Shown here: positions 11,834 through 49,540 of the stretch, piece after piece
Numbering within the stretch: the first letter of the stretch is position 1
Layout: the number at the start of each line of letters is the position of its first letter
Assembly: GCA_963682175.1 (NCBI GenBank)
Contig: OY821792.1
Location: 1,005,501-1,069,500 of the forward strand
DNA length: 64,000 bases
Source of the DNA: Triglochin maritima
Taxonomy: Eukaryota > Streptophyta > Magnoliopsida > Alismatales > Juncaginaceae
Reading direction: 5' to 3'
Made by a program: the position numbers and the translations under genes
The notes under the pieces: model-generated
What the model was told of the DNA's origin: nothing
The model's input: the letters and a program-made list of their open reading frames with translations, nothing else
The model's database searches: none

Positions 11834-12363
11834 CGCTGCCACACAGGCCCCGCGGTCTACAATCGCCACCGCTGCCACACAGGCTCCACGGTCCAACATC
11901 GCCGTCGCCACACAGGCCGCACGGTCGAACAACCACCGGTACCACACAGGCCACACGGTCAAACATCACTGCCGCCACACAGGCCGCACGGTCCAAACAA
12001 CGGGTCTCCGTAGAGACCTACCGTAGGCACATACGGTCTAACGGACAGTACGCAACACATCCCCACACGCGACTACACAAGCCAAGGGATCGGTGAGGAG
12101 GCGTTTGCACTTCCGCACAGGTAGAATCAGATCTGAAAACATCGTGGTCCACCACCACACCAACGGAGCCGTCGCTCAGGTCGGTCCATCCACTGCCGCC
12201 ACACAGACCGCACGGGATATCACTCGATAGGTGCCCAGTCGAGCTACCTGCCGGAACACATCATCGGCAGTCTATCGCCGCAACCACACAGGCTACGCGC
12301 GATCCTCCCTGCCGCCACACAGACCGCACAGGGGCCCTACCGCCGCCACACAGGCCGCACGAC
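11834..12363. repeat. CCGCCACACAGGCCGCACGG-type tandem array
   Basis: About nine imperfect copies of a roughly 21-40 bp unit with core GCCACACAGGC lie inside the solo LTR. The ORFs across it are repeat artefacts. Confidence 0.75.
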
Positions 12364-12880
12364 ACGTGCAATAACTGCCATCAAGGCCAGTCGAACATAT
12401 CCGCCACACAAGGCCAGACAATCGACAGATCCGAACCGAAGTCCGCAGGGTCAACGGGCTCCACGTGCAACACCAACTCCGACTCCAAACGAGCAGGGTC
12501 GCGACCTCCGTCGCCGTCAATAGGCCGGTACCTCTCTGGACCTCCGTCGCCAATCTTGGCCGGTAGTCTTTGTGCCTCCGTAGCCATCGGCCGGTAGTCA
12601 CTGCACCCGTCGACAGTTGTGTGTTGCTGAAGCAATGGGATCCGTAATCCCTCAGGCTGCTACTCTAACGCGAGTCAAACGATCCACCAGATATAGTCAC
12701 GATCCATACATGGAGGTGACGCGTTCCGGACACACACACTCTTCCACACGGCGGTCCCTGGGCAGGCACGCATAACGCGCCCACCGTCACCTCCCGGCTC
12801 ACGCACAAGGCGAGGACACGGGTTTCCGTGGACAGAGTTGGCATCCTAAGCGGAACCAGGAATTCTGTCCTGTGCAAAAA

Positions 12881-13364
12881 CGGTCGACCGGAAGAGACAC
12901 TCGGTCGACCGTTTCCTCAAGGGAATCGGTCGACCGCTGTGACAACCGGTCGACCGCTTCCACAAGGGAAATCGGTCGACCGAAAGTGACAGCTCGGTCG
13001 ACCGCTTCCACAAGGGAATCGGTCGACCGAAGCGTCTGCAACGGTCGAACTATTTGCGCAACACAATAATTCCTAATGGTCTACCGAAGGTCTAAAACCG
13101 GTCGACCGAACTAGGTCAAAATCCGGAATCTGGTCAACATCAAAGTCCAATCTATCGGTCGACCGACGCAGGGGTCTCGGTCGACCGAAAACTTACATGG
13201 TCAACTTAATATTTCTATGTCATCAACGGTCGACCGAAAACACTAGCATCCTACCGGTACACTCAAGTTCTGGTCGACCGAACAAGGGAACAGGTCGATA
13301 GAAACACCACAGACAGTAAAATAACGCTACGTTCGGTCGACCGTCCAAAGGACCCGGTCGACCG
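12881..13364. promoter_or_regulatory. Paired CGGTCGACCG palindrome array
   Basis: Copies of CGGTCGACCG or one- to three-base variants start at 12881/12902, 12927/12947, 12973/12995, 13020/13042, 13077/13099, 13156/13178, 13271/13292 and 13334/13355. Within-pair offsets are 21, 20, 22, 22, 22, 22, 21 and 21 bp. An unpaired copy sits at 13227. In LTR orientation (5' end at 13886) the block lies about 520-1000 bp into the LTR. A function as protein-binding sites is inferred from symmetry and spacing only. Confidence 0.7.
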
Positions 13365-14876
13365 ACAGACGTCTTCAACCTCGCGCCAGCCGAGGTTTTG
13401 ACGCCCCAACTCGTCGCCGGCGAGGTCTCCGACCTCCCGCGACCCACCAAAACCTCACCCCAACGTGGGTGAGCACTAAGGCCTCTAATGCAAGAACTTG
13501 GCATACCTTTCTCGCGAGAACGACGATGAACGCCGGAGCTCCGCAACCAACTCCGGTCTGCACCACGCACCTCCTCGCCCCTTCACCAACGCCCAGCACG
13601 CTCGCCTCGCGCACCTTCACCACTGGAACTCGAGCACCACAGGAGAGGAAGAAAGGTTTGAAGAAGAAGAAGAAAAGGAAGAGGAGAAGGAAACATTGGT
13701 TTTCCTCTTAAAACCCATCAACCAACCATCACCTCACCTCACCCCTACAACCCAGCCTACTGTTCACGCACACCTCCAGCCCATCCCTCTTCAACAGTGC
13801 AAGCCCCCTCTTCCCATCCCCATGCAAAGTCATCATCAACTCCACCTAAACATCATTAAACCTTAATCAAGGTTAGGGTCATAACAAGAGTTCTTAACCA
13901 AAATGTCTTAGCCAATGCGCCTTGTTCGGTAGGAATGCTTGTCGATAGGGGCATTGAGGGGATCGCAAGGATTGCCACTGGCTGGCAGGCGGTGAAACGG
14001 GTGGCCGTGCTTTTTATTCAAGGGAGGGACGATAGGGAGGCGTTGGGGTACGCTGGGAGGATGGTCGATCATCCGTTGGTCAACCTCACGGTGTTGAGGT
14101 TCATTGATGCTAACTATGAGGGGGATGACATGTCTGTCTCCATTTATGATCTCAGGTAATGTAAACGAGTCGAGTCGAGTCAAGTCAAACGTATCATGTT
14201 GACTTAAGATAGACTTCATGAGTTGCATAAAAGATAATAAACATATATATATATATATTCTGGTTATTTGAATACCCACCAAAATAATTTTTATAAATTT
14301 AGATATTGTCATGCCATAGATATATATTATTCATACTTCGCAACACAAACAAATATGTATGGTTTTTCACATTTTTATTTTTAATTATAACTATTCAGTA
14401 CATAACGGACTAGGGAACCGAGGCAACCCTAACACGTATGATTTAGCTCAAGTTTAAATTAATTATTTGATGTTAGACTATTCTCAAACGAACGAATTAA
14501 ATGGTTTTCTTAATTGATGTGCAGCGACTCTCAAGTCCTGAACGTCCTGACAGAGAAAGAAAGAGAGCGAGAGATTGTTGGACGACAAGTGCGTTAAGGA
14601 GTTCCGACTGAAGACAATGAACGACGACACTGTTTCATACATGGAGAAAACAGTATCGAACAACGAGGAAATGGTGATCGCAATACGATCAATAGATTGC
14701 ATTCACGACCTCTACATAGTGGGGCGAGGTGAGGGGATGGAGTCGGCGTTGACCGACGGACTTACGGAATGGACGAAGAATCCTGAGTTAGGATCCATAG
14801 GGGACTTGTTGGTGTCCTCCGACTTCACCACCACTGAGTCTGTTCTTGTCATCCAACAATATACAGGAAATGAATG

Positions 14877-19500: not shown

Positions 19501-21120
19501 GATGGCTGTAATTACACCCTACGCACAGTTTATGTTTAGTTTCATTTCCGACTTGCAAGAGTAAGTTCTTGTTTGCGCTTCATGTTGCAGTGCGTCATTT
19601 GCTAGACCATACTGATACCATCATCTTTGGCTTGATGCAACAAAAATATTACGATACGATTTACCCGAAGGACAGATGTCATGCCTTCAATTCCTCCTGA
19701 GACAAAGTGTCATCCATCTGCTGTTGACTTGCTTCTAATTAAACGTCTTATAGCTGAGACATCCAAGCTAAACCTTTTGCAGTTTCTTCAACATGAATTT
19801 GTGAACATTGGCAAGGCTTATGCTGAAAGATTAATTGGTAAATGCTGCCATCGTATTATTGGTTTCCAAGAAAACTTTGGACCTTGCCTGCAAATTGTGT
19901 GTTTCATGTACATTTCCTTTTCTTTTAAACCTGCCCTCTTGTTATAATTTACCTTGCAGGAGAAATGGGTCCCGAATTTAGTCCAAAGATGCCTGTAAAG
20001 AGCCTCACCTCCCAGCAAATAGTTCGCATTCATCAGTTATTTCGTCAGGCAAAATTTGATGATCCGAGTGGTGATGTGAGCTACATTTTCTTTTTACTAG
20101 GATCTATTGAATCCAGTGCTGTGAGTTTGTTCTCATCATAAAAATGTCTTTTGCTTTTATTCAGTGTCTTAGTCCTGCTGGGGAGTACAACCTTCGGCTC
20201 GGAATCATAAAGGAATTGCATCCTGACATGGTCGCGACTTACGCAGGAAGGTTGGTGCTTTAGTCTAAAAAATAATGCACCTTATTTATCATTTGGTATT
20301 AACACAAAATATAGTTGGGATTTCAACTAGACCATATCAATATATACTCGTAATGGAGCACAGACTGGCTTATGATAATAGAACTCTCAACCATTATATT
20401 TCCTGTAACTATCTTCTTTCTCTTCTTCCAAACAGTCCTCTGGTTTTTGAAGGTCATCCATTTATTGTTGAAGCTGGAATAAGCCTTGGGGTGGAAAAGA
20501 TGTGAAGCAAGTAAGCTGGATGCATTGAACCATCACTTGAGTTACCATGTTCTAGTTTGACTCTTATCTGTTTTTGTATGCTTTACCTTTTTTTCCTATT
20601 CATTAATTAGAATAGGATGCTTGATGGAGGTATGCGTACTAGCATCGTCCTAGATAGTTACCATGTTCTGGAGTATTGATATGTAGCCGTCTTTGTAACA
20701 TCCTCAAAGCAGCGGAAAATTTAAAATTTTAAACACTCAATCAACAGAGGATATTACGCAATAAAAGAACACAGGTGCACCGACATATATCATATATATG
20801 TGTGAACATCAGAGTATACAAAAGTTGTGATTACATCAAAAGCATATACAAAGGAAACAGTAATCACACGACCTCAACTGAGAGAAAGCTGGATCCGGTA
20901 GCGGTGCTCCTCTCCTCGGTCACCACCCCCTAATGCCGATCACGGCCTGAAAGTAAACATGCAACAATGCCTGAGTTTCCAGAAGGAAACCACGTATGCC
21001 AAACTCTAAATGTACGAAATAAAAGCATCCTAGCATGCAATTCTACTCAACAAGAAAAACATCACAACACGCCCAACACCAGGGCTCTCAACTCCACCAC
21101 AGGACACACCACAGGTACGG

Positions 21121-21511
21121 GGCTCCAGGTCTAATCTCAACCAACCGCCGCACCCACCACAGTCACGGGGCTCCAGGTCTAATCTCAACCAACCGCCGCG
21201 ACTCACACACGTCGCCAAGCTGGGCTCCAGGTCTAATCTCAACCAACCACAGCTACCACGACACGACCAAGGGCTCCAGGTCTATTTTCAACCAACCCAA
21301 ACGTATAAGGGCTCCAGGTCTATTTTCAACCAACCCCTACACGCGGTCCCTGCTCAGGCTCCAGGTCTATTTTCAACCAACCCGAACGCACTACGGAGCT
21401 CCAGGTCTAATTTCAACCAACTCCGTACAGACTAGCTGGGCTCCAGGTCTATTTTCAACCAACCGCAGCTCTCACACGGTTACGGGGATCCAGGTCTATT
21501 TTCAACCAACC
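21121..21511. repeat. GGCTCCAGGTCTA tandem array
   Basis: Nine units start near 21121, 21169, 21223, 21272, 21309, 21357, 21395, 21439 and 21484 (period 37-54 bp). Each contains CTCCAGGTCTA (last one ATCCAGGTCTA), then TCTCAACCAAC, TTTCAACCAAC or TTTTCAACCAAC. Conserved cores are separated by variable spacers, a pattern more like repeated binding sites than a simple satellite. Confidence 0.8.
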
Positions 21512-21623
21512 ACCGCAACCCTCGTGCACCTCGCACACTTGCCGGAAGAACATCGGCACCACGACTCGCCCCACACGGACAACCACGACCACAGCACCTC
21601 CATAGTGCAGAACAGGACACAAA

Positions 21624-22310
21624 CGATCGACCGAACCAAAAGTCCCGGTCGACCGAATCAAGCAAATACAGGGCAATCCACTTCGACCGGCACTCTATCG
21701 GTCGACCGATTCCCAACACCACACTCGTTCGGTCGAACCCAAATCAAGGGACGGTCGACCGTTTAGATGGTCAACTCCCGGTTCAACGAACAAAACGACC
21801 AATCGGTCGACCGACAAAGGGGTCCCGGTCGACCGAAAGTCACCAGGGAACAAATCCCACAACACCACAACGAATTCGGTCGAACGCCGAGCACATCTCG
21901 GTCGACCGAATCAGCCCAGGGAAGTATCCCTCACATGCGCCACGAGTCCGGTCGAACGCCGAGCTCACCTCGGTCGACCGAATTCCACCAGAGCGTTTCC
22001 CACGCTCAGCGCACAAGTCCGGTCGACCGAACCCTCATTCGGTCGAACCGACCACAAGGTCCACTTAAGTCACGGTCGGACGAGATCAAAGGGCGGTCGA
22101 CCGTTTATATAGTCTACGCCCTCTCAACCGACTTAAGACAGTGCACACGGTCGACCGGCAAAGGAGACCCGGTCGACCGAATCTCTCCAGACTTGCCTCC
22201 TATGCACAATCGGTCGACCGCCCCACAGGCATCGTTCGACCGATTTGAGGCAGAGCCCGAATTCTCTTCACGAACGGTCGACCGTTTGCACAAACCGGTC
22301 GACCGATCAG
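21624..22310. promoter_or_regulatory. Paired CGGTCGACCG palindrome array
   Basis: Pair starts read by eye: 21624/21646, 21680/21699, 21730/21752, 21804/21826, 21877/21899, 21949/21971, 22020/22040 and 22073/22094, with offsets 22, 19, 22, 22, 22, 22, 20 and 21. More copies follow to 22310. In many pairs one partner is the asymmetric variant CGGTCGAACG or CGGTCGAACC. Confidence 0.7.
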
Positions 22311-24477
22311 GCAGTGAAATTTGCTGCATGTTTACTCGCGACGAGCCGAACGGCCTACCGTCGACTTCCAAATACTCACGGTAATTAAGTGAGCGAGCTT
22401 GACATACCTGAAGGTCTGAAGAGACCTTTGAAGAACCACGACGACGTCTCCACGAGCGCGCCTCCCCAAAAACGATCCGTCGACGACTCTCGCGTCCAAA
22501 CGACGATCAATCGCCTCCTCGACGATCCAAAGCCACACACCACCTCTTCCAACCTCAACAACCCAACCAAGACCCCAGAAAACACGAGTTAGGTAGATGG
22601 AGAGAGAACCAACACAAAGGAGCGAGTAAAACCAATAACTCACCTTCAACCACCACCTTCGCCGGGGATCACCAACTCGCTGGAGCACAAACCTCTCGCC
22701 GGAGCTCACCACAGCAGATGAGGGAGAGAATCGCGAGTGAGAGAGAGAGAGAGCAACGAGTGAGAGAGAGAGATTTCCCCCCAAATATCTCCTCCCCTCA
22801 ATCCACACCATCCAATCCAATCCAATCCATCTCCACCACTCATCTCATCCCCTCTCCATCTCAACCCTCCATCCATCCAACTTCAATCCAAGCCATCAAT
22901 TCCATCTCCTCTCAATCCCAGCCGTCCATCTCTAATCTCCTCTAATCACCACCTAAACAACCACAAAGCACAATTAGGATTAGGATTAGGCTAGAATCCT
23001 ACAGTCTTAGTATTGAAGATCTTCAGGCAGATGTTACATGTAACTGACACGCCATACCTGAAAATTGGATTTGATAAATATTATGTCATTTAACGATAAG
23101 TTGAAGTATCATGTCGACATGTCGTTTATGTTTACGTATATGAATGATACCACATCCGTTTCTCTACGTATGACTTCATTTGTTATTTATCACTCGGGGA
23201 TTGAATATTTTTCGCTTTGCGAATCGTATCCCTCTTCTTTTAAAACAAGGTGCTGATGCGGTAACAAGAACTGCTCAGAAAAGAATCAAGTAAGATTTTC
23301 TACGTGCTGATGTATCCAGAAACTCATCTTGCTTTTCATCTGAACTGCAAATTACTATGAAATGATTTTGCAGTTGGAATAACTATAAGATCAACCAGAC
23401 ACAAGATAAATTAGGTGTGTTTGTGAGCATAGTAAGTACCAAAATCCCTTTCAAAGGAACGGGCAAGGAATATATAGGTGATGATATCAGTGAAATATCT
23501 TCAGCTGTTCAGGTAATGACTTGGAAATAATCTTTAGCTGATGGCATTTATTGGAACAAAATCGTCCAACTGATACTCATTTTGTGTACGTGGTATACTT
23601 GCAGGCTGCTATAAAACAATGTTGTCTTCAGTTGAAATCTAAAATAGTGAAGAAACTACAAGCTCGAGAGCGACAAGAAAGGAGAAAGAACTTAACCAAG
23701 TGTGTTGTTTTTATAGTTGGATGTTTAAACGTAAACAACGTTAAAGGTTTCACTTAATCATTCCTATCATGTTTCAGGTACATTCCTGATGCTTCTAGGG
23801 CTATATACGATGTTTTGAGTGCAACAGCAGAAAACAACAAAAGAAAACACGAGCTTCTCTTGGATAGTGATGAAGACGAAGAAATTCTGAAGAAGGTTGC
23901 AACCAAGGAAATTACAGAAGCAACATTGAGGGAGAAACTTATTCGACATGCTGAGCAGGTAAAAATTGTTACTCAAGTTCCTCTTATACACCTTTTCACA
24001 ATTTCCAGTGGCAGACATTCTCAAACTCAATATTTATCATGATTATTAGATCCCTAAAAGAAAAGGCAGTATTTCTTGGCTCAACTTTGAACAAGCTAGT
24101 TACAATCTTAACTTCAAGCTCTTGGATGTGAAATTTGGTCTTGTTACCCAGTTAGAACTTAAATCACAATTGTTTTAGTAAACAATATGTTAGTAGTTTA
24201 GGCTGGTTAACCTTGTTAAGAGAAGCTATATTGGTAAGTTTAGTTTAGCTTAATCAAGCTTGAGCCATTTATTATTTTACCCGTTCTAATAACAATAATT
24301 ATAATCTCTATTTGACGGTAACAACAGGTGGATTATGAAATGGCTCTGGAATATGCCACCCAAAGTGGAGTGAACGAGGAACCTCGGGAAGATATTTACA
24401 TAAAAGCTTTCGAAGAATCGAAACATACTTTTCTTGACTTCAAGAGTATCAATTTCATTTTTAGATTGGTTGTTTAA

Positions 24478-28349: not shown

Positions 28350-28475
28350 TGTAATAACCTAATCTAAACACCTAAATTAAACTAAACTAAACCTAATTAA
28401 TCTTAATTAAGCTTGCTACAATGAAGCATGAGGTGGAGAGTGAGGTGGAGGTTGGATAAGATTTGGTTTTTTTCC

Positions 28476-28483
28476 TATAAATA
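28476..28483 (+). promoter_or_regulatory. TATA box of the Tekay-like LTR
   Basis: TATAAATA 127 bp into the LTR predicts a start near 28508. U3 would then be very short and the palindrome array would lie in the transcribed leader. Confidence 0.6.
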
Positions 28484-28772
28484 GAGGTGTTAGGTTTTAA
28501 CTAAAACGTTTCTTCATTGTTTGGATTATCAGAGAGTGAGAGAGGCGATTTCTTTGGAGAAGAAGAAGGAGAGAAGAAGTGAAGAAGAAGAAGAAGAAGA
28601 AGAGGAGAAGAAGTGGGTTGGGTTTGCCAAAGCTTGGGAGACTTCCACGAACGTCAAAAAGGTATGCCAAATCTTCATTATAACTCACATAAGCCTTGTG
28701 AGTGTTGGGTATCGACGTTGGTGTCGAATTCCCCGTCGGATTGCAACCTATTCAGAGGTTGAAGACGACGAT

Positions 28773-29413
28773 CGGTCGACCGGTGCCTGTGGGCAGTCGA
28801 CCGATCCTATTATTATATTGATTTGTACCCGCGAACGGTCGAACGATGTCTATGGACGGTCGACCGTTATGCCAAATTCGTGCGGGAAAAGGGGTGATGC
28901 TGTTATCGGTCGAACGGGACCACTTAGCCGGTCGACCGAAAAACAATGAGAATGGGTCGGTTGGGGATTTTGACTTATTAAACGGTCGAACGTCCTTAAC
29001 CTTGTTCGACCGATCTATTCGATGGTAAGTCGGTTGGGAGTTTTGACCATCAAAACGGTCGACCGCTCTTTAACTTTCGGTTGACCGACTGAGCATTTTA
29101 ATTAAGCAGTAGAGTGCATGTGATGTTTCGGTCGAACTGTATAGCAGTTCCGGTCGACCGAATGCCACTTAGGCAAAATGCTGAATTTCCTGTTATCGGT
29201 TGAACGGCCCCTTGGTTCGACCGATCGGATATATATATTATATTATATAAAATTGTATAGCGTAGACCATCCAAACGGTCGACCGCTAGATGACTTTTGT
29301 TCGACCAATGGGTCGGTAATTCGGTTGGCGTGGTTCGACCGGTACACTTGTTTGTATAGTACCGAGTACTGTGTGGAGGGCCGGTCGACCGGTGTGCTTG
29401 TAGCGGTCGACCG
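28773..29413. promoter_or_regulatory. Paired palindrome array, 5' LTR
   Basis: Pair starts: 28773/28794, 28836/28857, 28907/28929, 28983/29003, 29056/29078, 29129/29151, 29197/29214, 29276/29298 and 29382/29404. Offsets are 21, 21, 22, 20, 22, 22, 17, 22 and 22. Most pairs contain one good CGGTCGACCG and one variant (CGGTCGAACG, CAGTCGACCG or TGTTCGACCG). The block lies 265-905 bp downstream of the predicted transcription start. Confidence 0.7.
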
Positions 29414-30278
29414 ATCTGCCGCAGGTTGGTGGATTTATCCACACGCGATCCGTTGAGTATAGGTTGACTACCGGCTCCGAGGCGACGGTTGATTACCGGC
29501 TTTGAGAGCGACGGATTTCACCTTCGACGAGGGCGTATTATTGTATTACTGTTGCCTCTCTTACTGAGCGGGGTGTGAGGGATGTGTGCCGTAAACCTTG
29601 GGCAATTTGCGAGGGTTTAGCAGTAGGCCGAGGATGTTCCGGCAGGGTGCGCGTATGGCGGCTCTTGGGGGAGCAGCGGCTGTCGTCTGACCCGAGTTGT
29701 GTATTCGGCGGGCTGACTCGCTCCTGGGGTGGCGGCGTGTGCCGGGGGTTCCTTCCTGCACTTTTGGGGAGCAGTGGTGTCGACTGACCTTTGTGAGGCA
29801 GCGGTGGACTAACTTGACCTTAGTGGCAGGAGTGGTTCAGTGCCGCGGAGGCGGTGAGGGCATTATTGTGGGCCCGAGGTGGATGATCATGTGCACTGCA
29901 TTGCATTGTCTTTAATTTCCTTTTTGTATTTTAGGAGGTTTGGTATACGGGGTTCCTTCAGGGAACTCAGGCATGTTTGTTTGTTTTCATTTCAGGTAGC
30001 GAGTAGCATTAGAGTCAGGTGGTGACCGAGGAGGGTGCCCCCGGGATCAGATCCTGTCCTCTTGTATATCTTTCTTTTGTTGAGGTAGTGATTACATGTG
30101 TATTCAGTTTTGTTGTAATCACAGTTGACTCATTTGTATAGTTTGACTTCCACGTGGATCTATATCTTATATATTTTATATATATGTTGGTTTGTTTTCC
30201 CGTGACGTGCCCTGTGTTGACCGTTGACGGTCTTTATTATTGTTTAAATTTTCCGCTGTTTTCGGGTACGTTACAATT

Positions 30279-30290
30279 TGGTATCAGAGC
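30279..30290 (+). other. Primer binding site (methionyl-tRNA type)
   Basis: TGGTATCAGAGC begins 3 bp after the 5' LTR, matching the 3' end of plant initiator tRNA-Met as used by many LTR retrotransposons. Confidence 0.85.
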
Positions 30291-30400
30291 GTTGATTCCG
30301 GCGTACTTGTCCAAAGAAACCACCTTTGAGTTAGGAAGTAGGTCTTAGAGGATCATGCATGCATATTTTATATTGATGATTGTCTTGTTTCCTTTGGGAG

Positions 30401-31405
30401 ATGCCTCCTAGACGGGGGAAGGTCGTCGCTCATACTCGCGGTGAGAGTGAGACTACGAGGGATGAGGCTTGGGAGGATGAGCGTCGGACGTTGTTCGATA
30501 CGGTCGGACGTCTGACTGAGATGCTACAACAGCAGACAGCACAGACTGGGCAGACGGGGACTGGCGCTATGCATGAGCGGTTTATGCGTCGGCATCTGCC
30601 TACCTTTCTGGAGCAGTATGACGTAGAGGCTGCGGAGGAGTGGATCTTCAGGATGCAGAAGATCTTCAGTGCTATTGGTTGTCCTCCAGAGGCGAGAGTG
30701 GGCATGGCTACATATGTTTTGGGCGGTGCTGCGTCCAACTGGTGGAGGTCCACATCTGCAGTGGTATTTGCGGACAGAGATGATATAACCTGGGAGGCGT
30801 TCGTTGGCAAGTTCAACGAGCAGTACTTTCCGCAGCATGTGCAAGATGCGAAGAGGGAGGAGTTTCTGAGTCTACAGCAGGGGGACATGACCCTGGCAGG
30901 CTACATCGGGAAGTTCAACGCCCTTGAGCGTTACTATCCCGACATGTACATCACACAGGAGCAGAGAGCTGGGAAGTTCGTCCGAGGGCTCCGGAAGCAT
31001 TTGAGGACGAAGGTGTTGACGCGTATGCCGAGCACGTTAGTCGAGGTCGTGAAGAGTGCCACTGTTCTTGATCGTGACTACAGGGAGAACTACCAGGATG
31101 AGAGGAGACCATCGGGTAGGTTCTCTGGGCGGCCAGGAGGTCAGACTGGGGGAAATCCGGGCAAGAGGCCCCGGTTTGAGGGAGCAGGAGCTGCAACACC
31201 ACGACCTGAGCCTTGTGGTAGTTGTGGCAGGTTTCACTATGAGCCGTGTTTTCTCACCGGAGCTTGTCATGGTTGTGGCCAGCTGAGCCACTTTATTAGG
31301 AGCTGTCTGAGCCGAGGAGCGGGGCCGAGCAGACCACCGGGATTACCAGCACCAGGCAGAGGTGGAGGCGGAGGTAGACCACCTTTCAGACCACAGCAGG
31401 GGTAG
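30401..31405 (+). CDS. Gag polyprotein of the Tekay-like element
   Basis: I chose the ATG at 30401 (MPPRRGK) because upstream codons are leader. The product is about 334 residues: a charged N-terminus, the capsid region of Ty3 gag (HLPTFLEQYDVEAAEEWIFR, then FNEQYFP and EFLSLQQGDMTLAGY), an R/G-rich linker, and a CCHC zinc knuckle CHGCGQLSHFIRSC near the end. It stops with TAG at 31403. The protease continues in the same frame after this stop, so gag was probably part of one gag-pro-pol frame and the TAG is a lesion, although stop readthrough is a formal possibility. Confidence 0.85.
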   Translation: MPPRRGKVVAHTRGESETTRDEAWEDERRTLFDTVGRLTEMLQQQTAQTGQTGTGAMHERFMRRHLPTFLEQYDVEAAEEWIFRMQKIFSAIGCPPEARVGMATYVLGGAASNWWRSTSAVVFADRDDITWEAFVGKFNEQYFPQHVQDAKREEFLSLQQGDMTLAGYIGKFNALERYYPDMYITQEQRAGKFVRGLRKHLRTKVLTRMPSTLVEVVKSATVLDRDYRENYQDERRPSGRFSGRPGGQTGGNPGKRPRFEGAGAATPRPEPCGSCGRFHYEPCFLTGACHGCGQLSHFIRSCLSRGAGPSRPPGLPAPGRGGGGGRPPFRPQQG

Positions 31406-34400
31406 CGCACTGGCAGAGTTTGCACCATCCAGGCAGAGGAGGCTCGTGATGGAGGCGTTGTTGTGGAAGGTACACTTCTTGTCGCTGGTTCGGTAGCTAG
31501 GGTGCTCTTTGATTGTGGCGTGACACACTCGTTCATCTCAGAGTGATTTGCGGGAGTGTTGGGTTGTACCCTTGCGATGTTGACTGCCACTTTGGAGGTC
31601 AGCACACCCCTGGGTCTGGTGGGCACTGTGGGGAGATTTGTCCCCGGCGCCACAGTTGTTTCGGGAGATCAGGAGTTTCCGGCAGACCTGGTATTGCTAC
31701 CGATGGAGGACTTTGATGTCATACTTGGGATGGATTGACTGTCCCAATATGATGTTCGAGTCTTGTGCCGTGAGAAGAAGATTTTGATCCCGAGGAAGGG
31801 TTTGCCTGATATTCTGATTAGAGGGATCAGAAGCAGAGGAGGTCGCATTATTGTATCTGCCGTGAGAGCTCAGAGACTGTTACAGCAGGGTTGTACAACA
31901 TTTTTAGCAACACTTGTGGTTGCGGAGGCAGAGTCTCAGAGGCTAGAGGACATTGAGGTGGTGCAGGAGTTCGTGAATGTTTTTCCAGCGGAGATTCCGG
32001 GTTTACCACCACACCGGGAGTTGGAGTTCGGCATAGAGTTGGTAGCTGGCACTACACCACAGTCGAAGGCTTCATACCGGATGGCACCTGCTGAGTTGAC
32101 AGAGTTGAAGAAGCAGTTGCAGGAGTTGATAGACTCTGGATTTATCAGGCCGAGTGTCTCGCCTTGGGGTGCACCAGTTTTGTTTGTGAAGAAGAAGGAC
32201 AGATCCTTGAGGATGTGCATAAACTACAGGATGCTGAACCAGGTGACAGTGAAGAATAGGTATCCCTTACCTAGGATCGAGGACCTCTTTGACCAACTGC
32301 AGTCAGCGAAGGTTTTCTCGAAGATTGACCTGCGTTCAGGATATCACCAGTTGAGGATTCGAGATGAGGACATCCAGAAGACAACTTTCAGGACGAGATA
32401 TGGACACTATGAGTTCTTGGTGATGCCATTTGGATTGACGAATGCTCCGGCAACGTTCATGGATCTGATGCACCGGACATTCAGACAGTATATTGATATA
32501 TTTGTGATTGTCTTCGTGGATGACATTTTGATCTATTCACCAGATGTGGAGCAGCACAGAGAGCATCTGAGGATTGTACTCAGCATCTTGAGGGCTCAGC
32601 AGTTATATGCTAAGTTCTCAAAGTGCGAGTTTTGGTTGGACAGAGTGGCATTCCTCGGGCACATTGTATCGGCAGAGGGGATATCAGTGGATCCGGCGAA
32701 GGTAGAGGCAGTGACACAGTGGAGGACCCCTACGAGCGTGACGGAGATTAGGAGCTTTGTTGGACTGGCGGGTTATTACTGTCGCTTCATCAAAGACTTC
32801 TCGAGATTGGCAGCACCACTGACGGCTCTGACGCAGAAGGGAGTCACCTTTGTATGGTCACAGAAGTGCGAGGACAGCTTTCAGGAGCTGAAGAGACTGT
32901 TGACCACAGCACCAGTTTTGTCATTGCCGAGTGGCACAGGTGGATTCGTGATTTATAGCGACACTTCAGGTGTTGGCTTTGGATGTGTACTTATGCAGCA
33001 CGGGAGAGTGATCGCGTACGCATCCAGACAGCTGAAGGTCCATGAGAGGAATTACCCGACGCATGATTTGGAGTTAGCAGCAGTGGTTCACGCACTGAAG
33101 ACCTGGAGACACTATCTTTATGGCGAGCAGTTTGAGGTGTTTACAGATCATCAGAGTCTGAAGTACCTGTTCTCGCAGAAGGAGCTGAACATGAGGCAGC
33201 GCAGATGGCTTGAGTTCATTAAGGACTACGATTTCACTATCTCTTATCATCCGGGGAAGGCGAACACAGTTGCAGACGTTTTGAGCCGGAAGTTGGAGGT
33301 ATCAGTAGCAGGCTTATGCATTCAGGAGTGGCGACTACTAGAGTCTTTAGTAGCAGAGTGGAGACCTTTTGCAGATAGCTCTGAAGGTGCAGTGATTCCA
33401 GGATTGAGAGTAGAGCCTCAGACAGTATCAGCAGTGATTCATGCTCAGTCTACAGATGAGGAGTTGAGCAGTTTGTTACAGTTGGCTGCTAGAGATGAGT
33501 CAGACTTCAGAGTTGGAGTTGATGGAGGTCTGAGATTCAGAGACCGTATCTGGGTGCCGAAGACAGATGACCTGAGACATGATATCATGGAGGAGGCACA
33601 CAGATCGAGATATTCCATTCATCCAGGGAGCACCAAGATGTACAAAGATCTGCAGCGGAACTTCTGGTGGCGAGGTATGAAGAAGGACGTTGCAGACTTT
33701 GTGTCGAGGTGTTTGGTCTGTCAGCAGGTGAAGATAGAGCACCAGAGACCAGCGGGGCAGATGCAGAGGATTGAGTTGCCCGAGTGGAAGTGGGAGCACG
33801 TGACGATGAATTTTGTTACGGGGCTACCGAAGACACGGAGATTTCACGACGCGATTTGGGTTATAGTCGATCGACTGACCAAGTCGGCGCATTTCTTAGC
33901 TATTAAGACCACCCTTGCTCTGGATGGTCTAGCTAAGTTATATATTGAGGAGATTGTCAGACTTCATGGTGTACCAGTCAGTATCATTTCAGATAGAGAT
34001 CCAGATTCACTTCGCGATTTTGGGAGAGTCTACACAGAGCACTGGGGACACGCCTGAAGTTTAGCACAGCTTTCCACCCACAGACAGATGGCCAGTCAGA
34101 CCGGACGATACAGACATTGGAGGACATGCTGAGAGCGTGTACACTTGACTGAGCTGGGCATTGGGATGAGCACTTGCCGCTGATAGAGTTCGCCTACAAC
34201 AACAGCTACCACTCGAGTATTGGGATGACACCATATGAGGTATTATACGGGAGACCGTGTAGATCGCCGGTATGCTGGAGTGATGTGGGCGAGAGACAGC
34301 TAGTTGGACCTGACATTATACAGTTATATTCAGAGAAGGTCGACGTGATTCGGAGACGACTAGCTACGGCACAGAGCAGGCAGAAGAGTTATGCTGATAC

Positions 34401-34845
34401 GCGGAGGCGTGAGCTGACTTTTGAGGTAGGAGATCATGTCTTCCTGAAGATCTCGCCTTCCAGAGGGGTGATGAGATTCGGGAAGAAGGGGAAGCTGAGT
34501 CCGAGATATGTCGGACCTTTTGAGATATTGGATCGGGTCGGTGAGGTGGCATATAGGATTGCTTTACCGCCACAGTTCGCAGGACTTCACAACGTCTTCC
34601 ATGTTTCTATTCTGAGGAGGTACGTGGCCGATCCAGCTCATGTGATTGAGATATCAGTACCGGAGATCCAGCAGGATTTGTCATTAGATGAGAGACCAGT
34701 TGAGATTGTAGATCAGATGGTACATCAGCTCAGGAGGAGAGCAATTCCGATGGTGAAGGTTAGGTGGCAGCATCACAGTGTCAGAGAGGCTACCTGGGAG
34801 ATCGAGGAGGATGTCAGGAGGCAGTATCCAGAGTTGTTCCGGTAA
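31406..34845 (+). pseudogene. Pro-pol of the Tekay-like element, multiply broken
   Basis: The protease region contains FDCGVTHSFIS, where the family active site is normally D-S/T-G, so the catalytic motif is altered. In-frame TGA codons lie at 31543 and 31736. An open frame from about 31739 to 34057 carries RT with FVDD (32513-32524), RNase H (32960-33120, [19 protein letters not shown]), and the integrase zinc region and core. A 1-bp loss near 34004 in the integrase core shifts the frame, and TGA near 34149 follows. The last frame (34174-34845) holds the integrase C-terminus and a chromodomain-like tail (VKVRWQHHSVREATWEIEED). The element cannot make its own integrase. Confidence 0.9.
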
Positions 34846-34882
34846 GTCTGTTTGCTTCGAATTTCGCGGACGAAATTCTTTT

Positions 34883-34890
34883 AAGGAGGG
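34883..34890 (+). other. Polypurine tract before 3' LTR
   Basis: AAGGAGGG lies 5 bp before the 3' LTR, after the conserved CGGACGAAATTCTTTT word. Confidence 0.75.
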
Positions 34891-34895
34891 TAGAT

Positions 34896-36807
34896 TGTAA
34901 TAACCTAATCTAAACACCTAAATTAAACTAAACTAAACCTAATTAATCTTAATTAAGCTTGCTACAGTGATGCATGAGGTGGAGAGTGAGGTGGAGGTTG
35001 GATAAGATTTGGTTTTTTTCCTATAAATAGAGGTGTTAGGTTTTAACTAAAACGTTTCTTCATTGTTTGGATTATCAGAGAGTGAGAGAGGCGATTTCTT
35101 TGGAGAAGAAGAAGGAGAGAAGAAGTGAAGAAGAAGAAGAGGAGAAGAAGTGGGTTGGGTTTGCCAAAGCTTGGGAGACTTCCACGAACGTCAAAAAGGT
35201 ATGCCAAATCTTCATTATAACTCACATAAGCCTTGTGAGTGTTGGGGATCGACGTTGGTGTCGAATTCCTCGTCGGATTGCAACCTATTCAGAGGTTGAA
35301 GACGACGATCGGTCGACCGGTGCCTGTGGGCAGTCGACCGATCCTATTATTATATTGATTTGTACCCGCGAACGGTCGAACGATGTCTATGGATGGTCGA
35401 CCGTTATGCCAAATTTGTGCGGGAAAAGGGGTGATGCTGTTATCGGTCGAACGGGACCACTTAGCTGGTCGACCGAAAAACAATGAGAATGGGTCGGTTG
35501 GGGATTTTGACTTATTAAACGGTCGAACGTCCTTAACCTTGTTCGACCGATCTATTCAATGGTAAGTCGGTTGAGAGCTTTGACCATCAAAACGGTCGAC
35601 CGCTCTTTAACTTTCGGTCGACCGACTAAGCATTTTAATTAAGCAGTAGAGTGCCTGTAATGTTTCGGTCGAACTGTATAGCAGTTCCGGTCGACCGAAT
35701 GCCACTTAGGTAAAATGCTGAATTTCCTATTATCGGTTGAACGGCCCCTTGGTTCGACCGATCAGATATATATATTATATAAAATTGTATAGCGTAGACC
35801 ATCCAAACGGTCGACCGCTAGATGACTTTTGTTCGACCGATGGGTCGGTAATTCAGTTGGCGTGGTTCGACCAGTACACTTATTTGTATAGTACCGAGTA
35901 CTGTGTGGAGGACCGGTCGACCGGTGTGCCTGTAGCGGTCGACCGATCTGCCGCAGGTTGGTGGATTTATCCACACGCGATCCGTTGAGTATAGGTTGAC
36001 TACCGGCTCCGAGGCGACGGTTGATTACCGGCTTTGAGAGCGACGGATTTCACCTTCGACGAGGGCGTATTATTGTATTACTGTTGCCTCTCTTACTGAG
36101 CGGGGTGTGAGGGATGTGTGTCGTAAACCTTGGGCAATTTGCGAGGGTTTAGCGGTAGGCCGAGGATGTTCCGGCAGGGTGCGCGTCTGGCGGCTCTTGG
36201 GGGAGCAGCGGCTGTCGTCTGACCCGAGTTGTGTATTCGGCGGGCTGACTCGCTCCTGGGGTGGCGGCGTGTGCCAGGGGTTCCTTCCTGCACTTTTGGG
36301 GAGCAGTGGTGTCGACTGACCCTTGTGAGGCAGCGGTGGACTAACTTGACCCTAGTGGCAGGAGTGGTTCAGTGCCGCGGAGGCGGTGAGAGCATTATTG
36401 TGGGCCCGAGGTGGATGATCATGTGCACTGCATTGCATTGTCTTTAATTTCTTTTTTGTATTTTAGGAGGTTTGGTATACGGGGTTCCTTCAGGGAACTC
36501 AGGCATGTTTGTTTGTTTTCATTTCAGGTAGCGAGTAGCATTAGAGTCAGGTGGTGACCGAGGAGGGTGCCCCCGGGATCAGATCTTGTCCTCTTGTATA
36601 TCTTTCTTTTGTTGAGGTAGTGATTACATGTGTATTCAGTTTTGTTGTAATCACAGTTGACTCATTTGTATAGTTTGACTTCCACGTGGATCTATATCTT
36701 ATATATTTTATATATATGTTGGTTTGTTTTCCCGTGACGTGCCCTGTGTTGACCGTTGACGGTCTTTATTATTGTTTAAATTTTCCGCTGTTTTCGGGTA
36801 CGTTACA
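34896..36807 (+). repeat. 3' LTR of the Tekay-like element (1912 bp)
   Basis: It pairs with 28350-30275 over its full length and contains the second copy of the palindrome array (35310-35946). It is shorter than the 5' LTR by 9 bp in the GAA tract and 5 bp in the AT tract. Confidence 0.92.
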
Positions 36808-43424: not shown

Positions 43425-45396
43425 TTTTTTTGTTTTTTTTAATTTTCTGTTAAATTCAAATTTTTCAGGTTCCGTTGCAAGATTTCGGTGGTGATGGAGT
43501 AGATTACAGTGAGCTTTTTGACAGTAAAGAAATATTTCCAACAATCGAGGAAGGTTGTAAATGGGCGAAACAAGTTGCAATAGCAGCCAGATTTTTTTTT
43601 GTTATATCATCGTACAAACCGAAAGCAGATAACCGGATGGATTGTTACCTCAGATGTGATCGCAGACGTGAGATGAGTTCTCGTGATACGAGTATTGCAC
43701 TACGAAAGAATACGAAAAGAAAAGGTTGCGGTTGTCGGTTTTTGGTAAAAGTGGTGGAGCGACGAGATCGTGATGGATGGGTTATTGTTTCTAGTAGCAT
43801 GTATGGGCAGCACAACCACCCATTGACAGTTTATTCAGAGGGTCACCGACAGGTCAGCGGACTTAGTGCTGGGGCAAAGCAAATTGTTCAGGATATGACA
43901 GAGGCACAAGCAAGACCCCGTAACATTTTGTTGGCGGTAAAGAAGAAATTTCCGGACGATAATCTGAATCAAAGGTACATTTACAACTTCAGAGAGTACA
44001 TGAGGAGGACGAAATATGAAGACAGGAATCTCGCGCAGCAGTTTCTCAGAGAGGCAGTGCAGCATAAGTATTTGCATTGGATTGTGGCAGATGAAGAAAC
44101 TAATGTCTTGACTCACGCATTTTTGGCACATCCGACTTCAGTTCAGTTGTTGCGTACATACCCATTCGTGATCTGTATGGATTCGACGTATAAGACGAAC
44201 AAGTACAAGATGCCTTTGTTTGAGATGGTTGGGGTTACTCCAACAAATATGAATTTCCTCGTCGGAAATGCGATTTTGCAGGATGAGACTGAGTCTAGTT
44301 ACCGGTGGGTGTTGGAGAGGTTGCGAGATCTGTTATTGGATATTGTTAGCCTGACAGCGATAATTACGGACCGGGAGATGGGGCTGATGCGACCAGTGGC
44401 AGAGGTTTTTCCTGAGTCTGCTCATTTACTATGCACCTGGCATATCAACAAAGACGTGTACAACTACGCATACCACGTATTCGGCAAGGAGAAGCAGCTT
44501 GCAGAGAGTTTTAGGCATGGAAGGTGGAGGAGAATCATGCTTTCTGATTCACAGACGGATTATGATAGAGCAGTTCGTAATCTGAAAGATTCTTACAGTT
44601 CCTGGCCAGTGCTGACGAAGTATGTGGAAGACACGTGGTTGGTGCATAAGGAAAAATTCGTGTTGAATTGGACGAATCAAGTTTTTCACTTCAGCAACAC
44701 TACGAACTGCAGGGTGGAAAGTGCACATTCGGCTCTGAAAGAGTGGATCACTACATCGACTGCCGCTCTCGACACTCTTTTCGACCGCGTGAACTCGTCT
44801 ATTGAAATGCAGCTGACAAATATTCGGAGCTTTCTTGAAGATTCGAGACGTTGAAATTTGGCACATTACATAGGTCCTTTGTTTCAACATATAAATGGCC
44901 GAGTTTCGCATCACTGCTTGTCGTTAATGACTCAGGAGTTGAAGAGAATGCAGGACTTAAGTGATGAAATTGAATATCGTTGTGGGTGTGCTTTCCTGAC
45001 AACACATGGGATTCCTTGTGCATGTACCATGTACGAGTGTTTGGCGTCAGGTGATGGAATTTATTTAGAGCAGATTCATCCATTCTGGAAAACACTTGTT
45101 ATCGGAGAAGGAGTCCAGATGTCAGAGTTTGTTGATCAGACAGCACAAGACGCCGAGCATTTTCGGAAGCTAGTGGATGAGATCTCGCAGAGCGACCCTG
45201 CAGTAATTCGTAGTGTCTCTCGTATTTTATACGAACAGTTACACCCCGATCAGTCGAACTATGGAGAACCCGAAGAAAATACTATGATACGAGGTCGACC
45301 TAGGGGAAAGTCGACACGTCGGGACCCGAGTGCCTTCGAGTATGCTGAGTGAGGTCGTGGTCGGTCTGGCAGTAGTGGGAGCAGGGGGAGGCAGGG

Positions 45397-45735: not shown

Positions 45736-46445
45736 GTCGTCGGTCTAATTCGTCTCGATCGTCCTTGAATACGGGCACAGGATCTTCTGGTATGTCGATA
45801 TCTTTGTTGTTATGTTATTTAATATATATCAGTAATCTAAATGGGGTTGAATATATTATCTCCTAATTTTGTTGTTTTAATGAATTATTATTTACCTATC
45901 TTACAGTGTCCGGACGGGTTTGTTAGGATCTATGGCCCTCTAATCGATAGAAAAATGCGGAATTAAAAATACTAATCGAATGATTAAGGAAGAGACAATT
46001 GCAAACCACAAATTCGTCGACACCGGAGTTTAGAGAGGTTCGGCACCCACACCCGGGTCCTAGTCCTCCTCGCAAGCCTCGCTCGATCCCCCGAGCCTCG
46101 CTTACGGTTCCACTAACCGATCTCCGTTCCGGGCCGAGACCAACGCCGTTTACAACACCGAGCCTCGCGAACAACCTCGCCTCGCTCGTGTCTCCTCTCA
46201 CAACCCGAGAGGGAGCTTCCTCGAAGCTTTACAACTTGGTGATTCTTGAATAAGGAATTGGAATCACAATCTAACTAACACTCTATACTTGAGCACACTT
46301 GGATATGATATGGAATTGGATATGCAAGTGGTGAAGTTTAGGCTTGAGTGTTGTGGATTGAGAGCTTGAAGATGGAGAGGATTTGGCTTTGAGTATTGGA
46401 TAGATAGGAAGTGTTCAAGATGTCCAAAGCAACCAAATGAGGTCC

Positions 46446-46453
46446 TATTTATA
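46446..46453 (-). promoter_or_regulatory. TATA box of the copia LTR
   Basis: TATAAATA on the minus strand, about 980 bp into the LTR. The palindrome array lies 98-680 bp upstream of it, the position of an enhancer. Equivalent sites recur every 3622 bp. Confidence 0.6.
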
Positions 46454-46550
46454 AGTCTTCAAGCTCATCTAGCCGTTTGGGAGTTGGTGGGGAATGGACC
46501 AATGAGAAAGCAAGATGTGACTTAAGCTCGGCCAGAAATCGAGACAGATT

Positions 46551-47127
46551 CGGTCGACCGTTATCCACACGGTAGTCCGAAACATTGGTCTGAACAAAGA
46601 ACTCGGTTGACCGATTATGTATCGGATCACCGTTCACCAACCTCCAGTAGCTTTTATCTATTTAGCCCTAATTAAATTTGGTTCACCGAAGTCCATTCGG
46701 TTCACCGTTCCAAGGTGGACAGTAGAATTGATTGGGCTCTGATCTACTCAAGTTCGGTTGACCGTGTATACTTCGGTATACCGAAGTAGCGCGGGAATTG
46801 CGCTGACAAAGCGTGGGAGATTGGTTTACCAATAACGGTCAAGTTAAATAGCCGTTGGTCTCCTAAAGCAATATGATTCGGTTGACCGAATGAAGTTCGG
46901 TGTACCGAATATGGATAAGTCAATTTGGCTTTAGGTCAAGATTTAAATACGACCGTTGGAGCAAAGTCCAAAACCGGTCCAGGCTAATTCGGTCTACCGA
47001 AGGCGGTTCGGTATACCGAGGTGGTTATTCCAGGGAACACCTAAAGGATTCTACACGGTTGACCGCAAGGTGTTCGGTGGACCGAACTCTACAAGATTCG
47101 GTTTACCGAGAAGGGTTCGGTTAACCG
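46551..47127. promoter_or_regulatory. Eight palindrome pairs, each offset exactly 19 bp
   Basis: CGGTNNACCG-type sites start at 46551/46570, 46604/46623, 46679/46698, 46755/46774, 46879/46898, 46990/47009, 47056/47075 and 47099/47118. Every within-pair offset is 19 bp (9-bp spacer) while distances between pairs vary and spacer sequences differ. The two central bases vary (TG, TC, AT, GT, CT, GG, TT, TA), but the outer CGGT and ACCG are mostly kept. Four further copies occur at 50173-50749, 53795-54371, 57417-57993 and 61039-61615. Confidence 0.8.
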
Positions 47128-47433
47128 TGGGGATACGGGACAAAATCCTAATGTGCTCAAGTTTACATTAATCCTTAGGACTCAAATTATACTACATTAC
47201 ACATTGGTCCAAAGCTTGATTACATGTCTTGAGTCTTTATCTTCTTGTCCCCAAGCTCCTTAGCTTGATTCTTCATCAACCTATTAAGAATATCGCAAGT
47301 ACACGAATATATATGCAATGCATGTATTCATGTTTGCTTACTTTGATTGTCTAGGTTGATTGATTAAATATAGATTAAGATTAGATTACTTAATCATCAA
47401 AACTAAATAAAGATTAAGGCTAAAAAGCCAACA

Positions 47434-47785
47434 ATCTCCCCTTTTTTGATGATGGCAAATCTATATCTTAATATTTTGAGTTCAATTGTATTTCTCCCCT
47501 TTCTATATGTTTTGTTTCTTAACATATATGTAATCTATGCATTTACAAGATTTCTCCCCCTAACAACATGCATAGTTTATTTAAAATTGAAGCTCTATCT
47601 TAATTCTTCTCCCCCTTTGACATCAATCAAAAAGCAAACATTAAGCATTTGATGCAAAGGTAAGAGATATCTAACTCTCCCCCTTAATTATATGATTTTG
47701 CAATTTTAGGCTCCCCCTATCAATTAGGCTAAATAGCAACAATGAGTATTAACAATTAAGTGCATTTCTATTCTCCCTCTTAGCC
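47434..47785 (-). other. Polypurine tract and six PPT-like repeats
   Basis: On the minus strand, AAAAAAGGGGAGAT abuts the LTR (47434-47447). Related purine runs follow at about 47491, 47550, 47605, 47675, 47711 and 47770 (for example GGGGGAGAA). Multiple PPT copies upstream of the 3' LTR are, as I recall, a Sirevirus trait. The same set is in each unit. Confidence 0.6.
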
Positions 47786-48010: not shown

Positions 48011-49489
48011 TCAAGTACCTACAATTGAAGATTTTGGTACCCATTTTTGCTTGGGTCCAATCATGTTAGTTTTTGGAACCCAAACCATTTTGGTTTTAGG
48101 TGCCCAAATACTTGAGGAAGTTTTATTCACTACAAAATGCTTTCCATTCAAAGTAGTGTGAATAACATGGTTCTTAAAGTTATTAGCATAAAAACCTATA
48201 CCATGTTTATCTAGTGATTGTCTTTGACTATCAATAAGCATATCAAGCATTTTCTTTCCACTTGTGAATTTTTCAAGATCCTTTTGTAATTGAACATTCT
48301 TAGCAATTAGATCTTGAATATCAACACTACATGAAGGTTTTGCATTTAGAGTTGCAATTTCATCAATCAATTGAGTGTTCTCTAATGCAATTTTATCATG
48401 ACTAGCAAGTAATTCATTCTTATCATTCATGATAGATTCAATTTGAGATTGTAGCTCATTGATTTTCTTTCTTGCTAGTTTATTCTTTTGACAAATTTTC
48501 TCAAAATTTTCAAGCAATTCATTGAATTCACATTGAAGTTCATTATATGCATTTGAATCATTTGAATCATGACTAGAGCAAGAAGATACCTCACTATCAT
48601 CGTCTTCTATTGCCATGAAGCACATTGAGGCGAATTCGCCTTCAATTGATGAAGATGATGAAGTGTCCCAAGTAGCTTTAAGAGCTTTCTTCTTCTTCTC
48701 TTTTCTCTTGCTCTTCTTCTTCTCTTTTCTTCTTTCTTTCTCTTCTTTGAGAAATTCCTTAAATTGTTGTGTCGCTAATTGTTCCTCGATATCACTATCT
48801 CCTTTTATCGAATTGGCGACGGCGTGTAGCCCTAAGGATTTCTTGACTCTCTTCTCAATGCGGTCTTTCATTTGTATCTCATATGTCATGAGACTACCCA
48901 TTAGCTCATCGACCGATAATTTTGTGAGATCTTGTGCTTCTTCGATGGCGGTCGTCTTTTCCTCCCAATCGTCGGTGAGTGATCGGAGAATCTTTCGAGT
49001 AATCTCTCCCTTGCTAAAATCCTTGCCAAGTGCTTTAAGAGAGTTAATTATCTCGGTGAAGCGAGTGTGCATCTCACTTATGTTTTCACCGGATTGCATA
49101 CGAAATAATTCATATTTATGCATGAGCAAATTAATCCTAGTTTCTTTCAATCTATTTGAACCCTCATGATGCATTTCTAATGTATGCCAAATATCATAAG
49201 CACTTTCACAACCTCTTACCCTATTGTATTCCCCTTCATTTAACCCACAATACAAGATATTCATAATGCGGGAATTCATCTCCGCTTCCTTAATTTTGGG
49301 TTTTGTTAAGGATACAATTTCATCATCATTAGGAGGTGTATATGAGTTTAATATGAATGTCCAATATTTCAAATCATTTGATTGCAAATATATTCTCATT
49401 CTTTTCTTCCAATAGTCATAATTTAACCCATTAAACAAAGGTGGCTTAGATGTGGATAATCCTTCACAATGATTAGAAGTAGATGCCAT
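48011..49489 (-). CDS. Copia Gag, unit 1
   Basis: 492 residues, intact. The N-terminal region (PPLFNGLNYDYWKKRMRIYL) and the downstream ISEMHTRFTEIINSLKALG and ILRSLTDDWEEKTTAIEEA belong to the UBN2/copia gag-polypeptide family. A Lys/Arg-Glu run at about residues 250-275 precedes an Asp/Ser-rich stretch and a long coiled coil (about 320-430). The tail has three tandem WVPK/WAPK-type motifs. The CCHC zinc knuckle expected between the basic run and the coiled coil is missing. The ATG lies about 50 bp after the primer site. Particles would need pol supplied in trans. Confidence 0.88.
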   Translation of the reverse strand: MASTSNHCEGLSTSKPPLFNGLNYDYWKKRMRIYLQSNDLKYWTFILNSYTPPNDDEIVSLTKPKIKEAEMNSRIMNILYCGLNEGEYNRVRGCESAYDIWHTLEMHHEGSNRLKETRINLLMHKYELFRMQSGENISEMHTRFTEIINSLKALGKDFSKGEITRKILRSLTDDWEEKTTAIEEAQDLTKLSVDELMGSLMTYEIQMKDRIEKRVKKSLGLHAVANSIKGDSDIEEQLATQQFKEFLKEEKERRKEKKKSKRKEKKKKALKATWDTSSSSSIEGEFASMCFMAIEDDDSEVSSCSSHDSNDSNAYNELQCEFNELLENFEKICQKNKLARKKINELQSQIESIMNDKNELLASHDKIALENTQLIDEIATLNAKPSCSVDIQDLIAKNVQLQKDLEKFTSGKKMLDMLIDSQRQSLDKHGIGFYANNFKNHVIHTTLNGKHFVVNKTSSSIWAPKTKMVWVPKTNMIGPKQKWVPKSSIVGT

Positions 49490-49528: not shown

Positions 49529-49540
49529 GCTCTGATACCA
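49529..49540 (-). other. Primer binding site, copia unit 1
   Basis: The minus strand reads TGGTATCAGAGC, 2 bp from the LTR edge, the methionyl-tRNA type. It repeats every 3622 bp. Confidence 0.85.

Follow-up and report, generated by a model that had tools for sequence, protein, structure and literature searches.

The window, the whole stretch of DNA analysed here, comprises 64,000 nt of Triglochin maritima (GCA_963682175.1, contig OY821792.1, positions 1,005,501–1,069,500, forward strand), within an assembly of 1.06 Gb. Between positions 45916 and 61926 of the window, five LTRs alternate with four gag-only internal regions in a tandem array that has the 5-bp direct repeat GGGTT on either side. 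The array has a period of 3622 bp, and its units are at least 99.8% alike. The first of its five near-identical LTRs (45921–47433, minus strand) is 1513 bp long and of the copia Sirevirus type; it is delimited by TGTT..AACA ends (read on the plus strand), by repeat boundaries in a self-BLAST comparison, and by an adjoining primer-binding site (PBS) and polypurine tract (PPT). The array looks as if a single insertion had grown by unequal recombination between LTRs, all within one GGGTT target-site duplication. The palindrome blocks described below are identical in all five LTRs. Because these form one tandem array with identical blocks, the pairing seen in them counts once inside the window. 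The same LTR family recurs at steps of ∼3.69 kb on contig G000:C1 (near 2059101, 2062789, and 2066478 among the matches listed, partly within locus L070); thus, tandem arrays of this kind also exist outside the window. A MULE transposase-type ORF of 459 aa lies nearby, at 43475–44854.

The internal region of the repeating unit is sparse. Its gag ORF (48011–49489, minus strand) encodes 492 aa whose only domain match is Retrotran_gag_2, of the copia type. No zinc knuckle was found in this ORF, and no pol or reverse transcriptase was found in the gag-only unit by ORF and domain searches. The PBS, TGGTATCAGAGC, lies at 49529–49540 (minus strand) in the first internal unit. Polypurine tracts on the minus strand cluster at 47436–47718: AAGGGGAG occurs at 47436–47443, as the terminal tract, and again at 47494–47501, and four exact copies of AGGGGGAG, from which the terminal tract differs by one base, start at 47554, 47609, 47677, and 47711, all within 285 bp of the LTR. 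Read by eye, the PPT/LTR junction AGAT|TGTTGG contains an AT-TG attachment site, and an inverted repeat spans it, with CATCATCAAAA before and TTTTGATGATT after. Multiple PPT copies are a hallmark of Sireviruses in the passages of Bousios et al. (2010; PMC2829016), and the PPT cluster, junction inverted repeat, and AT-TG site described there all occur in the copia unit. The large zinc-knuckle gag of the same description found no counterpart, the 492-aa ORF matching Retrotran_gag_2 only. With the coding part reduced to gag, the assignment draws on the noncoding hallmarks, by which we classify the unit as a Sirevirus-derived, nonautonomous element. A 294-bp stretch of locus L052 is 70% alike to the unit's internal region and sits in a zf-CCHC-bearing gag ORF that is followed by a copia RVT_2 domain.

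TR-GAG elements consist of two LTRs around a PBS, a gag ORF, and a PPT, lack pol, and measure ∼4 kb or less. The copia unit has this layout of LTRs, PBS, PPT, and a single gag ORF without pol, but it is less compact, since two 1513-bp LTRs and a 2109-bp internal region amount to 5.1 kb. Unlike TR-GAG elements, moreover, the units here share LTRs in a tandem array. Searches found no relatives of gag or of gypsy pol in viral contigs and no relatives of gag in prokaryote genome contigs. Separately, AGGGGGAG or its complement recurs every 492–493 bp in loci L056, L060, L062, and L063, which looks like a tandem satellite with a Sirevirus-like polypurine tract.

The copia LTR carries sixteen CGG-CCG palindromes arranged as eight pairs. 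The pair closest to the putative TATA box, CGGTCGACCG/CGGTAGTCCG, occupies 46551–46579 (starts at 46551 and 46570); it is followed by CGGTTGACCG/CGGATCACCG at 46604–46632 (46604 and 46623) and TGGTTCACCG/CGGTTCACCG at 46679–46707 (46679 and 46698). In the remaining five pairs both mates are exact; these lie at 46755–46783 (starts at 46755 and 46774), 46879–46907 (46879 and 46898), 46990–47018 (46990 and 47009), 47056–47084 (47056 and 47075), and 47099–47127 (47099 and 47118). Exact CGGTNNACCG is thus found at 13 of the 16 sites, and the three with one mismatch each (46570, 46623, and 46679) are confined to the three TATA-proximal pairs. TT ahead of the core and AA behind it weakly extend the dyad. 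The whole window holds 108 exact copies of CGGTNNACCG, as against 0.28 expected from shuffles. Read in the sense of the element, the first palindrome stands 306 bp inside the LTR, the block runs for 577 bp, and the TATA box (TATAAATA, 46446–46453, minus strand, assigned by sequence match) follows 98 bp past the last palindrome.

The first-pass annotation, made from the letters alone, had described eight pairs with an invariant 19-bp offset, upstream of the TATA box, at variable distances from one another and with unrelated spacers. Each of these descriptions is borne out. All 16 sites were recovered and all eight pairs have starts exactly 19 bp apart; in 20,000 trials that scattered 16 sites at random over the span, eight equal neighbor offsets never arose. 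From pair to pair the starts lie 53, 75, 76, 124, 111, 66, and 43 bp apart, within the 43–124 bp originally given. The inner five bases of the spacers have an identity of about 0.22, compared with 0.257 for random LTR stretches. The flanks 3′ of the pairs likewise show no homology (identity 0.209), and the half-sites are 95% alike.

Family copies show how the half-sites fare over time. Three copies were aligned; the near-identical L068 was excluded, so that the pooled count comprises L069 and L070. Half-sites were changed at 15 of 236 positions and sequence outside the pairs at 117 of 702 (P = 3e-5), while changes fell on 17 of 59 center positions and 24 of 129 spacer positions. Half-sites were therefore altered 2.6 times less often than their surroundings, despite their CpGs, which usually decay fast. 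L070 is by eye a mosaic, with a diverged TATA-side part and a remainder almost identical to the LTR at 45921–47433, so its changes are spread unevenly; several sites have been lost in L069, so decay also happens. None of the three aligned copies has an insertion inside a pair span, and gaps within pair spans occur only in the first pair, where copies are cut off or misaligned.

Besides the copia LTR, three LTR families in the window carry CGGTCGACCG arrays, about which the first-pass annotation was silent. One belongs to a Ty3/gypsy element at 28350–36807 (plus strand), with gag, reverse transcriptase, RNase H, and integrase between two LTRs that are 97.6% alike, and with GACTT on either flank. 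Its matches above cutoff are RVT_1, RT_RNaseH, Integrase_H2C2, SH3_Tf2-1, and Ty3_capsid; a chromodomain match scores 20.1 bits, under the cutoff of 25.1. The array in its 5′ LTR (28773–29413) has 14 sites, none with more than one mismatch, and close pairs at 21–22 bp, and the same array is present in the 3′ LTR (35310–35945). A second gypsy-type LTR (minus strand, ∼20693–22990) has an array at 21624–22305 with close pairs mostly at 21–22 bp, and a third (minus strand, ∼11399–13890) has one at 12881–13364 with close offsets of 20–26 bp. Among neighbors less than 30 bp apart, those at 20–22 bp number five of five in each LTR of the complete element, seven of nine at 21624–22305, and six of nine at 12881–13364; the remaining close neighbors lie at 25–27 bp. 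The two further gypsy-type LTRs are related, at ∼60–65% in their best stretches, and the gypsy arrays of the window, being mutually related, are not independent cases. When the gypsy LTRs are aligned, all 14 sites of the 5′ LTR fall on sites of the second LTR and 6 of the 14 on sites of the third, with identity between the 5′ and second LTRs at 132 of 140 positions inside sites and 653 of 1280 outside; we give this alignment little weight because the palindromes themselves may have guided the aligner.

Two further features of the gypsy-type LTRs were recorded. The off-consensus variant CGGTCGAACG recurs in their arrays (at 28836, 28907, 28983, 21877, and 21949); its change from C to A is unlike CpG decay, so a second form of half-site may be tolerated. 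In addition, a gypsy-type LTR contains at 21086–21511, adjoining the palindrome array, a further layer of repeats, with units of 38–54 bp that bear GGCTCCAGGTCTA..TTTCAACCAACC.

Across the genome, pairs of exact palindromes were counted at offsets 19 and 22. Offset 19 yields 35,680 and offset 22 yields 54,349, compared with three at each offset for a reversed control pattern. A systematic sample of 20 10-kb stretches of contig 1 contained 66 exact palindromes and three copies of a control palindrome. With an array defined as at least four sites, at least three of them exact, and smaller groups dropped, the sample held 11 arrays, located in 7 of the 20 stretches. All 50 of their neighbor offsets between 10 and 31 bp fall at 18–24 bp: 18 (1), 19 (12), 20 (0), 21 (10), 22 (22), 23 (1), and 24 (4). 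One 7-bp overlap lies outside that range. A second sample consisted of loci fetched for holding an offset-19 match; its 67 exact neighbors at 40 bp or less fall at 18 (3), 19 (31), 20 (7), 21 (5), 22 (8), 23 (2), 24 (6), 25 (1), 32 (1), and 34 (3). With seven of these 67 pairs at 20 bp, that offset is rare rather than forbidden; the LTR designated E1 also has one.

A universal 19-bp offset is thus ruled out by the gypsy arrays of the window together with the systematic sample. As a general rule the 19-bp claim fails, because offsets are 21–22 bp in other families and vary from 19 to 22 within some, as in the near relatives of gypsy element B, which combine 19, 20, 21, and 22 (3′ part of the LTR 90–92% alike). 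The centers of the palindromes differ as well. At offset 19 they are varied, with CG in 46 of 106 (53 distinct pairs from the first 100 places listed), whereas at offset 22 they are mostly CG, in 113 of 130 (65 distinct pairs, likewise from the first 100 places listed). This composition suggests two kinds of pair. A pair of the form CGGTCGACCG-N9-CGGTCGACCG, with 19-bp geometry, is also conserved, once, in the GC-rich viral contigs L001, L007, L009, L010, and L011; there it resembles a phage operator, and a link with the plant elements is improbable.

The distances between pairs follow the helical repeat of DNA in pooled families. In the systematic sample the wider neighbor gaps lie mostly at 41–45, 48–53, 63–65, and 72–75 bp, with a few at 32–34, 56, 84, and 93 bp. 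These gaps are phased at 10.5 bp (R = 0.54, P = 0.0004), as are those of 13 families represented by one array each (R = 0.36, P = 0.0008); over the counting variants, R ranges from 0.47 to 0.54 in the systematic sample and from 0.36 to 0.43 in the 13 families. When near-equal gaps of one array were counted once, R was 0.41–0.48 with P of 0.0073 or less, and when the period was left free between 7 and 15 bp, P ranged from 0.0003 to 0.035. The 22-bp class is phased most strongly (R = 0.62–0.67 at 10.5 bp), and the 19-bp class fits better at 9.7–9.8 bp than at 10.5 bp. Among single LTRs, B and E2, which are mutually related, are phased at 10.5 bp (P = 0.0005 and 0.001), with P of 0.045 and 0.064 once periods of 8 to 14 bp are allowed. 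Phasing is not significant in the copia LTR at 45921–47433 alone (P = 0.12) or in LTR E1 alone (P = 0.25). A phase rule of ∼10.5 bp therefore applies between pairs, in the pooled families. It does not apply to the 19-bp offset itself, which had been equated with about two helical turns and in fact amounts to 1.8 turns at 10.5 bp per turn. In family copies, inter-pair distances have shifted by −11, +11 (two events, of 9 and 2), and +10 bp; these three cases, noticed post hoc, are near one helical turn and are a lead only.

Much of this architecture has precedents. A CGG-CCG palindromic repeated motif (RM) of Sirevirus LTRs was published in 2010 (PMC2829016), whose Table 3 gives the consensus of a Vitis element as CGGTCGACCG. 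As described in that paper's passages on it, the RM resembles the array of the copia LTR in its CGG-CCG core, its at least eight copies, its CpG richness, and its location, which is ahead of the TATA box and for the most part within the upper half of the LTR. It starts 200–400 bp inside the LTR and runs for 300–500 bp, so that the position of our array fits and its 577-bp length slightly exceeds the published range. The maize Sirevirus palindrome has the consensus CACCGGACNNNGTCCGGTG (Bousios et al. 2016, via PMC5311732 and PMC10760457). The passages that relay it likewise describe clusters in the LTR cis region, fast evolution, and strong predicted folding, with an emphasis on small RNAs and folding. 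The 2010 passages account for copy number, symmetry, and position, with no mention of pairing or fixed distances, and they treat the RM as Sirevirus-specific relative to classic copia elements, whereas here a Ty3/gypsy element carries it too. Among the matches listed from the open literature, none, judged by title, opening of the abstract, or retrieved passages, dealt with pairing or spacing of these palindromes or with their presence in gypsy LTRs. Exact CGGTNNACCG was not found in literature text, with no plant LTR study by title among the exact-motif matches listed, and a search on LOB/LBD-type binders gave no usable motif study among its listed matches. As far as these sources extend, the palindrome, its copy number, and its position are already published, and the spacing grammar and the gypsy presence look new.

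Our favored explanation, which we regard as somewhat better than even, is that the palindrome block of the copia LTR is a cis-regulatory array of the kind known from Sireviruses, in which a dimeric DNA-binding protein occupies the sites in pairs. The most likely ligand of each TTCGGTNNACCGAA palindrome would be a symmetric protein dimer, recognizing the CGGT half-sites and, in the copia family of this LTR, indifferent to the two bases at the center. Each pair would hold two of these dimers next to each other, perhaps cooperatively, at a set distance, which is 19 bp here and mostly 21–22 bp in gypsy-type families. The tendency of pairs toward near-whole-turn distances along the LTR would bring the complexes to one side of the DNA. 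In the copia LTR, the array, ending 98 bp upstream of the TATA box, would probably raise transcription of the element. The dimer-of-dimers operator proposed at the outset survives as a paired dimer site, which fits the constant geometry, the unrelated spacers, the conserved half-sites, and the lack of covariation between mates; 19 bp as a general offset does not survive. The enhancer role proposed with it took its basis solely from position, which agrees in the copia LTR, before the TATA box. In the gypsy LTR, with its TATA box at position 128 and its palindrome starts at 425–1056, the array lies downstream, so that a single position rule fails.

Three other explanations deserve weighing. Mates could pair as hairpins, in RNA or as cruciforms, forming a stem, closed by a loop of 9 to 12 bases, that acts in RNA or feeds host small-RNA production. 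The sense strand of the arrays does fold much better than 20 shuffles (z = −8.0 for the copia LTR and −7.4 for the gypsy LTR), maize Sirevirus palindromes are described as small-RNA hotspots (PMC5311732, PMC10760457), and the gypsy array, standing after the TATA box, would be transcribed at the 5′ end. Good folding, however, is expected of any dense set of palindromes. The central bases of mates are complementary only at chance level, folding is no stronger in native pairs than after mates are re-paired (P = 0.57), and predicted hairpin stability is nearly independent of loop length from 5 to 15. Variants on one side occur in 9 of 18 gypsy pairs and are compensated on the other side in none. 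With no covariation and no added stability, a hairpin between mates is ruled out as the cause of the spacing, and we consider a hairpin function of the arrays improbable. Protein dimers binding in twos are preferred because the centers are free, the half-sites conserved, and the mate distance fixed, with no covariation. A chromatin signal, in which CpG-rich palindromes set nucleosome rotation or a methylation pattern without a sequence-specific factor, seems to us the least probable of the alternatives. It would accord with the ∼10.5-bp ladder of inter-pair gaps and with the CpG observed/expected ratio, which is 1.34 in the array, 0.88 in the TATA-side part of the LTR, 0.28 in its far part, and 0.58 in the internal region; the palindromes hold 32 of the 42 CpGs of the block, and Sirevirus motif clusters are described as defining CpG islands in PMC2829016. 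Yet a rotational signal could do without an exact 8-base dyad, and it would not require 20-bp offsets to be scarcer than those at 19 and 21–22 bp.

The spacing could also be a relic, inherited without selection from an ancestral pair block that was copied along the LTR and has since decayed. Across the eight pairs the site-1 centers are more alike than chance (TG in four of eight, P = 0.01), the 5′ flanks show a slight similarity between −15 and −3 (0.302 vs. 0.257, P = 0.04), and a site-1/site-2 class signal reaches P = 0.06; the similar centers and 5′ flanks leave room for an old common origin of some pairs. In another LTR family, moreover, whole pairs have been multiplied with their spacers kept, the identical spacer appearing again 64 bp on. 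In the copia LTR, the inner spacers and 3′ flanks have no residual similarity, yet spacer length is constant in all eight pairs; no pair-span insertion occurs in the three aligned family copies; and identical offsets recur in array families that BLAST left unclustered (by single linkage on motif-rich DNA, in which unrelated families may merge). One duplicated segment with alignable spacers is therefore ruled out for this LTR, its inner spacers being unrelated, and decayed duplication as a general account seems to us unlikely, and slightly less probable than hairpins. The original statement that the array is not a decayed tandem repeat stands for the LTR at 45921–47433 and does not extend to the family that duplicates its pairs.

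The paired-dimer explanation has a broader and more tentative extension. The copia and gypsy elements may possibly have converged on one cis-regulatory code, in which pairs of dimers at 19 or 21–22 bp are stacked on one helix face and served by a common host factor, to form a retrotransposon enhanceosome; we think this rather less likely than not to hold as a whole. Since the same half-site occurs in two unrelated superfamilies of one genome, a host factor would be favored over an element protein. The spacing rule predicts that dimers bind in twos, and it thereby separates DNA-binding explanations from hairpin explanations. With ∼90,000 exact pairs at two offsets, the landscape of the binder would matter for the host genome. 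If the extended reading is true, the enhanceosome would number tens of thousands of copies and could retune host genes.
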